Made by a program: the position numbers and the translations under genes
The notes under the pieces: model-generated
Told to the model about the DNA's origin: nothing
Database searches by the model: none
What the model saw: the letters and a program-made list of their open reading frames with translations, nothing else
Assembly (NCBI GenBank): GCA_946479505.1
Contig: CAMLGC010000096.1
Span: 1-8,184, forward strand
DNA from: an uncultured Sphingomonadaceae bacterium
Lineage (GTDB): Bacteria > Pseudomonadota > Alphaproteobacteria > Sphingomonadales > Sphingomonadaceae
Direction of reading: 5' to 3'
Length of the DNA stretch: 8,184 bases
In this document: one piece after another, positions 1,453 to 1,893 of the stretch
Layout of the letters: every line of letters starts with the position of its first letter
Position numbering within the stretch: position 1 is the stretch's first letter

Positions 1453-1809
1453 ATGAAGCGGATTACCATCTTCTTGCTGCTATTCGCGGCGATGCTGGGT
1501 CTTGCGGCGCAGGCGCCGGCGCGTGCGCTCGCGCCTGATGCGGACGCGAACGTCGCGGCCGCAATGGCGGCAATGCCGAACTGCATGGAGAAGATGGATC
1601 ACAAATCGTCGGACAGCCCGTGCGGCTGTACGCGCGCCGACTGCATCGCGGCCATGCTCGGATCGGCACCGCTGTTCACGGCAGTCGATCCTGTCGGCAC
1701 ATTGGCTGCGCACGGTGCTTCCGCTATCCGCCCGATCGCCGCGCAAGCCGTACCGCTCATTGGAAAAAGTCTCGGACCCGAGCCTCCTCCGCCAAACCGC
1801 CTGATCTGA
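1453..1809 (+). CDS. small secreted Cys/Met-rich protein, CzcI-like leader of the efflux genes
   Basis: This 118-residue protein begins with a clear signal peptide (MKRITIFLLLFAAMLGLAAQ, cleavage near ARA at about 22-24). The mature part holds a compact set of possible metal ligands: M41, C44, M45, M48, H50, then C57-G-C59 and C64 (SPCGCTRADC). It ends in a Pro-rich tail, GPEPPPPNRLI. I do not recognise a named family. Small secreted proteins with Cys/His/Met residues and a Pro-rich end commonly precede RND metal-efflux operons (CzcI and similar), and its position just before cusC fits that. The ATG at 1453 is chosen because the signal peptide starts there; the frame extends upstream to a GTG at 1363, which would overlap the DUF411 gene and put 30 non-signal residues in front. 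The ribosome site is weak (AGCAGG at 1436-1441). The last codons and the stop are part of the inverted-repeat element at 1800-1886. Confidence 0.7.
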   Translation: MKRITIFLLLFAAMLGLAAQAPARALAPDADANVAAAMAAMPNCMEKMDHKSSDSPCGCTRADCIAAMLGSAPLFTAVDPVGTLAAHGASAIRPIAAQAVPLIGKSLGPEPPPPNRLI

Positions 1810-1813
1810 AATA

Positions 1814-1833
1814 GCGGGCGCAAACGCGCCCGC
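1814..1833 (+). other. hairpin A inside the structured element
   Basis: GCGGGCGC at 1814-1821 pairs perfectly with GCGCCCGC at 1826-1833 around an AAAC loop. All eight pairs are G-C. No T-run follows, so intrinsic termination is not well supported. It lies 4 bases after the stop codon of the upstream gene. Confidence 0.75.
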
Positions 1834-1834
1834 G

Positions 1835-1866
1835 CATGCGGCGCGTGATTCTTCACGCGCCGCATG
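1835..1866 (+). other. hairpin B inside the structured element
   Basis: CATGCGGCGCGTGA at 1835-1848 pairs perfectly with TCACGCGCCGCATG at 1853-1866 around a TTCT loop, 14 bp. It carries an ATG in each arm (1836 and 1864). The second is in frame with cusC but would be buried in the stem. At the DNA level it is also a perfect inverted repeat and could be a protein-binding site, but its nesting inside a second complementary pair favours an RNA role. Confidence 0.75.
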
Positions 1867-1893
1867 GTCCGTCATTTCAGATCAGGACATCCC

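Follow-up and report, generated by a model that had tools for sequence, protein, structure and literature searches.

CutF-like proteins are described as nascent copper sensors that are thought to delay the ribosome and so to open a stem over the Shine–Dalgarno (SD) sequence of the next gene (PMC9973294). CutF of Rhodobacter capsulatus has 118 aa, a Cys motif and the C-terminal end PEPEGPPPRL (PMC8456105). CutF-type control is copper-dependent, acts in cis and calls for both translation and export of the small protein. According to PMC9973294, copper-dependent CutO requires translation of cutF as well as its Cys motif and Pro-rich end, a requirement lifted by mutation of the anti-SD of the stem; in the assays described there no arrested product was detected and the copper effect was seen indirectly. 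Variants of the Cys motif were accepted in the wider CutF-like set of 2021, and the same source counts 43 cases in Sphingomonadales where a CutF-like gene lies near a copper oxidase (PMC8456105). The commonest neighbour class of CutF-like genes is reported to be the outer membrane efflux protein (OEP), often annotated CusC (PMC9973294). The CruR (DUF2946) upstream ORF of Bordetella pertussis is also small and copper-sensing, with a Cys motif and a C-terminal Pro-Pro, but it acts through Rho-dependent termination and its downstream genes go down with copper (PMC9426467); toeprint data on CruR suggest that translation is arrested when the proline pair of RAPP occupies the P and A sites (PMC12992588). 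In the CopL family (NF033807; Xanthomonas, Stenotrophomonas) expression of the copper genes requires a small gene in cis (cited in PMC9973294). In SecM, VemP and MifM an exported nascent chain arrests the ribosome, and a stem ahead of the following gene is thereby opened (PMC9973294), a likeness drawn from the described mechanism, although these systems sense export activity and not metal. In the parts of the literature consulted we found no report of a conserved stop/SD stem or of a studied sphingomonad case, and the string 'Sphingo-' is absent from the main text of PMC9973294; the published lists of CutF-like proteins (2540 and 5334 entries) may include the loci considered here.

The window and its small upstream gene

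The window, i.e. the whole stretch of 8184 nt analyzed here (contig CAMLGC010000096.1 of an uncultured Sphingomonadaceae bacterium), carries by Pfam the end of a c-type cytochrome gene, DUF305, DUF411, the small gene, the OEP gene (cusC), CusB and an ACR_tran pump of the CusA type, in this order. The small gene (1453..1809, + strand; 118 aa plus the stop TGA) was read as an ORF and compared with its relatives in a 16-member alignment (A1) and with the published rules for the CutF-like class. In our proposal the controlled gene is cusC (1894..3165, + strand; PF02321, E 1.5e-30), which starts 84 nt past the stop of the small gene. This pairing of a small gene with cusC is expected, since OEP is the neighbour class reported most frequently for CutF-like genes. 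Further downstream, CusB (3165–4643) has a CusF domain at its C-terminus (PF11604, residues 420–486), and a Met/Cys-containing ORF of 40 aa without Pfam match (MMDCMNMSGGMM...) lies at 7777–7896, directly at the end of the CusA-type gene.

The small protein is Cys-rich. It begins with MKR, a hydrophobic stretch and then AQAPARA, and judged by hydropathy alone the N-terminus is signal-peptide-like in 81 of 86 orthologs; the corresponding published rule asks for a Sec signal peptide with cleavage by signal peptidase I. Its Cys residues stand at positions 44, 57, 59 and 64, of which C44, C59 and C64 are invariant and C57 is present in 15 of the 16 members of A1; an exact CXXXC, the central Cys motif of CutF, is absent. 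The C-terminus reads GPEPPPPNRLI (P109-EPPPPNRLI-118), and the codons P109-E-P-P-P-P114 (1777..1794, + strand) form the presumed ribosome-slowing motif, with P113 and P114 invariant in A1. A Pro-Pro within the last 15 residues was observed in 85 of the 86 orthologs, the sole miss being L071, whose ORF end was read in a shifted frame. The distance from the last Cys to Pro-Pro is 49 residues in the window versus 42 in 73 of 85 orthologs. The protein matched no Pfam family at E<=0.001. With 118 aa it falls under the published length limit for CutF-like proteins (<150 aa; Ozturk et al. 2023). Its architecture fits a CutF-like protein, and it agrees with most of the published rules for this class.

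Other small copper-related families were compared as well. DUF2946/CruR (PF11162) is absent from the six Pfam families listed for the 16 members of A1 at E<=1, and an hhalign comparison of the 86 orthologs with 15 DUF2946 proteins from genomes of the family gave a probability of 0.6%. CopL_fam (NF033807) appeared for one of the 16 members of A1 at E 0.02, and two orthologous loci matched its profile weakly with 23.6 and 21.6 bits, below the curated cut-off of 40. In the plasmid collection the small protein had no match at 1e-5 while CusC matched 249 records. As to a spread beyond Sphingomonadales, the small-protein profile matched at 1e-5 one of 385 genomes drawn from the class, a thin sample, and this one was G001 itself. 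Many sphingomonad DUF2946 genes (L158–L172) also end in PP, a few residues and TGA, and the next SD seems paired with the stop zone in 5 of 14 of these junctions under a crude choice of the next gene; a similar stem may therefore exist in some of them.

Structure of the element at 1800–1886

A preliminary description of the locus had pointed out three nested perfect inverted repeats of 13, 8 and 14 bp between positions 1800 and 1886, and all of them were recovered at these places. The outer arms (1800..1812 and 1874..1886, + strand) pair perfectly over 13 bp. They enclose an inner hairpin of 8 bp (1814..1833, + strand; 1814–1821 with 1826–1833, loop AAAC) and a second one of 14 bp (1835..1866, + strand; 1835–1848 with 1853–1866, loop TTCT). 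Minimum-free-energy folding of 1780–1910 with RNAfold gave the expected three-way junction at −66.9 kcal/mol. The average of 200 dinucleotide shuffles was −36.7 (sd 3.3) and none was as good, which corresponds to a z-score of −9.08. In the window the full nest was found once, and none of 60 dinucleotide shuffles of the window contained it; a 13-bp outer arm pair alone was found 0.067 times per window shuffle. The element had not been recognized earlier as a known riboswitch or attenuator class, and the Rfam search of the window (4227 families, gathering score) yielded 0 matches. The reverse strand of the element folds as well (−70.3, z −7.15), as inverted repeats do, and it is the stop codon and the SD that point to the + strand as the relevant one.

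These repeats had been described as lying between the two genes, which is inaccurate for the outer stem, as its arms overlap both neighbours. The small gene terminates with CGC CTG ATC TGA, and the 5' arm CCTGATCTGAAAT, the anti-SD arm, holds its last codons and the stop TGA (1807–1809). The 3' arm ATTTCAGATCAGG terminates in AGG and continues into AGGA, the SD of cusC (1884..1887, + strand; 6 nt before the ATG by direct reading), of which it covers three of the four bases. By these positions on stop and SD the outer stem joins the end of one reading frame to the next ribosome site.

As in cutF-cutO, a 118-aa Cys protein, in the window with a putative N-terminal export signal, is encoded immediately before a copper gene and in the same orientation. 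The Pro-rich ends resemble each other (P109EPEGPPPRL118 in CutF and P109EPPPPNRLI118 in the window, CutF being compared by its ten C-terminal residues), and a stem shields the downstream SD, in the window by computation. The two loci differ in the downstream gene, a multicopper oxidase in cutF-cutO and cusC, the outer-membrane gene of an RND efflux system, in the window, and in the gap, which is about 40 nt there and 84 nt here. Furthermore, the window has a three-way junction and a Cys spacing other than CXXXC, its copper response would be a predicted one, and its anti-SD arm extends over the last codons and the stop of the putative sensor gene itself. To our knowledge such an overlap is not known for CutF.

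Homologous junctions

For comparison of homologous junctions we searched for CusC in genomes of the family (105 of 397 matched at 1e-60) and of the genus (51 of 195 at 1e-100) and for the small protein by profile in genomes of the order (32 of 396 at 1e-8). Loci were fetched for part of the CusC and small-protein matches. Applying the profile to these loci gave 123 matches, 122 of them with enough downstream DNA, which reduced to 86 unique junctions, 80 with an assignable next gene. Those excluded had no plausible next gene within 130 nt (L029, L086, L090, L062, L076 and, by judgement, L120), and L071 was dropped from later counts (80 to 79) for its shifted frame. Start codons were picked by SD score on the same scale as for the controls, except that those of L118, L073, L083 and L079 were set by hand; the start of L073 is doubtful (the frame ends after 29 aa) and L079 runs off its locus.

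In minimum-energy folds, pairing between SD zone and stop zone is present in 78 of 79 junctions, or in 78 of 86 if all seven dropped junctions count as misses, versus 6 of 47 ordinary tandem gene pairs from two genomes of the family. For the junctions from the second small gene to cusC in related operons the value is 7 of 27. It is the position of the pairing that differs: an SD GG paired somewhere in the stop-region duplex was observed in all 80 junctions and also in 37 of the 47 controls. The next gene is a CusC match in 9 of the 79 junctions (window included) and an ORF of 80–100 aa in 68. The SD covered by the stem is, in most relatives, that of a second small gene located before cusC. A single very GC-rich perfect hairpin lies between this second small gene and cusC in several relatives (L015, L019, L022, L025, L027, L031); in L015 (oriented) it has 16 bp and stands about 55–90 nt before the cusC match, and L012 has a hairpin followed by a T-run. 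A Novosphingobium MAG (L001), the one locus that came from a contig scan, has a CusC 77% identical to that of the window and keeps the outer arms over 8 bp (CCTGATCT/AGATCAGG) around a different interior. This locus, that of the closest relative, carries a different small ORF of 95 aa (L001:4608–4895) between the element and cusC, where the window has none.

We then compared each arm with its own partner and with exchanged ones. The duplex energy was −17.24 kcal/mol for own arms versus −14.03 (sd 0.32) for permuted arms, with 0 of 20 000 permutations as good, and the window's arm pair is the strongest of 73 (−30.4). The own arm is the best of 73 for 11 junctions only, with L067 ranking 67 behind, and the duplex energies of the ordinary pairs overlap with those of the junctions (18 of 47 at −15 or below). 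Over 57 distinct arm pairs, 75.8% of the positions are paired versus 69.8% with exchanged arms (maximum of 5000 exchanges: 73.1%), and sliding the arms by one base lowers this to 46–52%; the pair table is ungapped, which costs pairs in those junctions whose SD arm carries an additional A (AAAGG). Pairs 1–6 and 8–10 are kept in 47–57 of the 57 arm pairs, while pair 7 (16/57), pair 11 (35/57), pair 12 (34/57) and pair 13 (17/57) are weaker. The perfect 13 bp of the window are thus unusual, because these four pairs often fail in relatives. The commonest 5' arm starts with CCTTGGCTGA (44 of 79 junctions; TGA is the stop), and the SD side reads CCAAGG in 25 of 79 and CCTGATCTGA, the form of the window, in 5 of 79.

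Pair 4 occurs as T-A, C-G and G-C. In the rows with T or C the A or G on the SD side follows the coding side (37/1 versus 3/6, Fisher p 5e-5, where p values serve as guides only because the junctions are related and independence is overstated). In the common register the coding base of pair 4 is the third base of the penultimate codon, for which T and C are synonymous. On a quick tree of the small proteins, calculated without their last six residues and of modest support, the minimum number of changes between Watson–Crick types is 6 for pair 4, 3 for pair 5, 4 for pair 6 and 7 for pair 12.

A three-way junction conserved as a unit was considered and rejected: two inner branches were observed in 2 of 79 junctions, one of them the window, and a single branch in the other 77. 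Since the inner branches vary in this way, the interior looks like a spacer in which any hairpin is possible, and the perfection of the inner hairpins in the window is local. The comparisons support the proposal of a cis-acting RNA element in the copper efflux operon, with the restriction that its conserved unit is the outer stem and that the inner hairpins are peculiar to this locus. The preliminary description had named homologous junctions with unpaired arms, or with arms varying without compensation, as the finding that would speak against it. No such finding emerged for the outer stem as a whole among the junctions counted, although pairs 7 and 13 are often mismatched and the interior varies freely.

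Position of the stem and translation of cusC

With its computed structure, stop/SD position, compensated conservation, Pro-Pro spacing and CutF-like architecture, the element looks functional, as a translational switch of the CutF type. We consider it probable that the SD-shielding stem couples translation of cusC to a CutF-like nascent copper sensor, for which we infer a slowing of the ribosome, its dependence on copper and the direction of the response as follows. In the free mRNA 1800–1812 would pair with 1874–1886, the inner hairpins would hold the arms together and cusC would be poorly initiated. A ribosome slowed on PEPPPP, with Pro113 in the P site and Pro114 in the A site, would reach about position 1804 and unzip the pairs that hold AGG, so that another ribosome could initiate on cusC. 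The prolines of RAPP in CruR would correspond to Pro113 and Pro114 here. By analogy with Rhodobacter CutF, copper on the exported Cys residues of the nascent chain may prolong this pause, and we propose that periplasmic copper would therefore turn on the efflux operon. The ratio setting or metal sensing suggested earlier is supported by the comparisons, with one shift of place: metal sensing, if present, is most likely a property of the CutF-like nascent protein with its Cys residues and Pro-rich end, rather than of the RNA.

We modelled the cost of opening the SD with the ribosome front set 15 nt downstream of the P-site codon's first base, as is practice for toeprints. The mean modelled cost over the 79 junctions is 6.1 kcal/mol for the free mRNA, 2.2 with a ribosome on Pro-Pro and 2.3 with a ribosome at the stop, and it still exceeds 3 kcal/mol in 17 and 20 of the 79, respectively. 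For the window the model gives 7.0 kcal/mol without a ribosome, 5.2 with one at the stop and 3.7 with one at Pro113, the lowest value among codons 100–118.

In 72 of 80 junctions the SD-pairing base of the 5' arm precedes the stop by 7 nt; a register of −8 to −6 was found in 1 of 47 ordinary tandem pairs. In L112, L113, L063, L080 and L073 the stop is 6 nt nearer to Pro-Pro and the SD-pairing base is 2 nt before the stop. The gap from Pro-Pro to the 5' arm is 5 nt in 71 and 4 nt in 6 of the 80 junctions (77 together), the exceptions being two with 2 nt (in L010 a PPP lets the last pair be taken) and L071, whose frame as read lacks a PP. The arm moves together with Pro-Pro, since the gap of 4–5 nt persists where the stop is shifted; on the quick tree the five shifted junctions amount to about two lineages. 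Whether the Pro-Pro pause site rather than the stop sets the location of the anti-SD arm, so that a ribosome pausing at this site would free no more than the SD and leave the remaining stem closed, we regard as an evenly balanced question.

This register bears on the plainest alternative, in which a ribosome ending at TGA simply opens the stem and the next one starts cusC, giving a fixed protein ratio without metal sensing. The stop is part of the 5' arm, 65 of 80 duplexes have each of its three bases paired, and a ribosome at the stop also lowers the modelled SD cost, in some junctions (e.g. L042 and L045) by more than one on Pro-Pro. However, in the five shifted junctions the arm position tracks Pro-Pro and not the stop, the PE..PP end and the Cys residues are conserved, and the small gene stands in a copper-operon context where, according to the literature consulted, CutF-like genes were shown or proposed as sensors; we therefore hold plain translational coupling to be unlikely. 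There is a slim chance that pausing on the small ORF instead decides Rho-dependent termination before cusC, as is described for CruR of Bordetella pertussis (PMC9426467), and both modes could act together. The intergenic region of CruR is reported as 162 nt, and we found no SD-shielding stem described for CruR in the literature consulted, whereas the arms here are fitted to the SD with compensation and the small gene is not a DUF2946 member by Pfam or profile comparison.

The chance is slimmer still that the element is an intercistronic mRNA stabilizer or a processing site that gives cusC a protected 5' end. Its hairpins are very stable, several relatives also have single GC-rich hairpins in the gap from the second small gene to cusC, and the cutF-stem region is reported to have affected mRNA stability (PMC9973294), but such a role leaves the SD/stop register and its compensation unexplained and the interior hairpins are not conserved. 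As for a small mobile palindromic element, for which the perfect 13-bp terminal inverted repeats might speak, no similar DNA turned up in the plasmid collection, no copy was found in the relative's genome G001 (a weak test without positive control), and the Novosphingobium locus retains the outer arms around another interior. An intrinsic terminator would be expected to show a T-run after the 14-bp hairpin, which is absent, and the single weak match of the terminator scan against 0.5 expected is near chance. For these last two readings, taken together, we see next to no probability.

A probable coupling of cusC translation to the nascent small protein through the outer stem is our preferred reading. 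For the question in the CutF field of whether and where the Pro-rich end pauses the ribosome, it yields a direct prediction, namely that the ribosome pauses at Pro113 and that its front then stands at about 1804. If the arm is indeed placed by the pause site, the Pro-Pro spacing would amount to a design rule by which copper arrest-peptide switches could be recognized from DNA alone, and the window locus would be a switch that drives an RND copper pump directly. For sphingomonads, the occurrence of such a stop/SD stem under a CutF-like gene, conserved and with compensating changes, suggests that copper acts through the nascent chain on cusC or on the small gene that precedes it.
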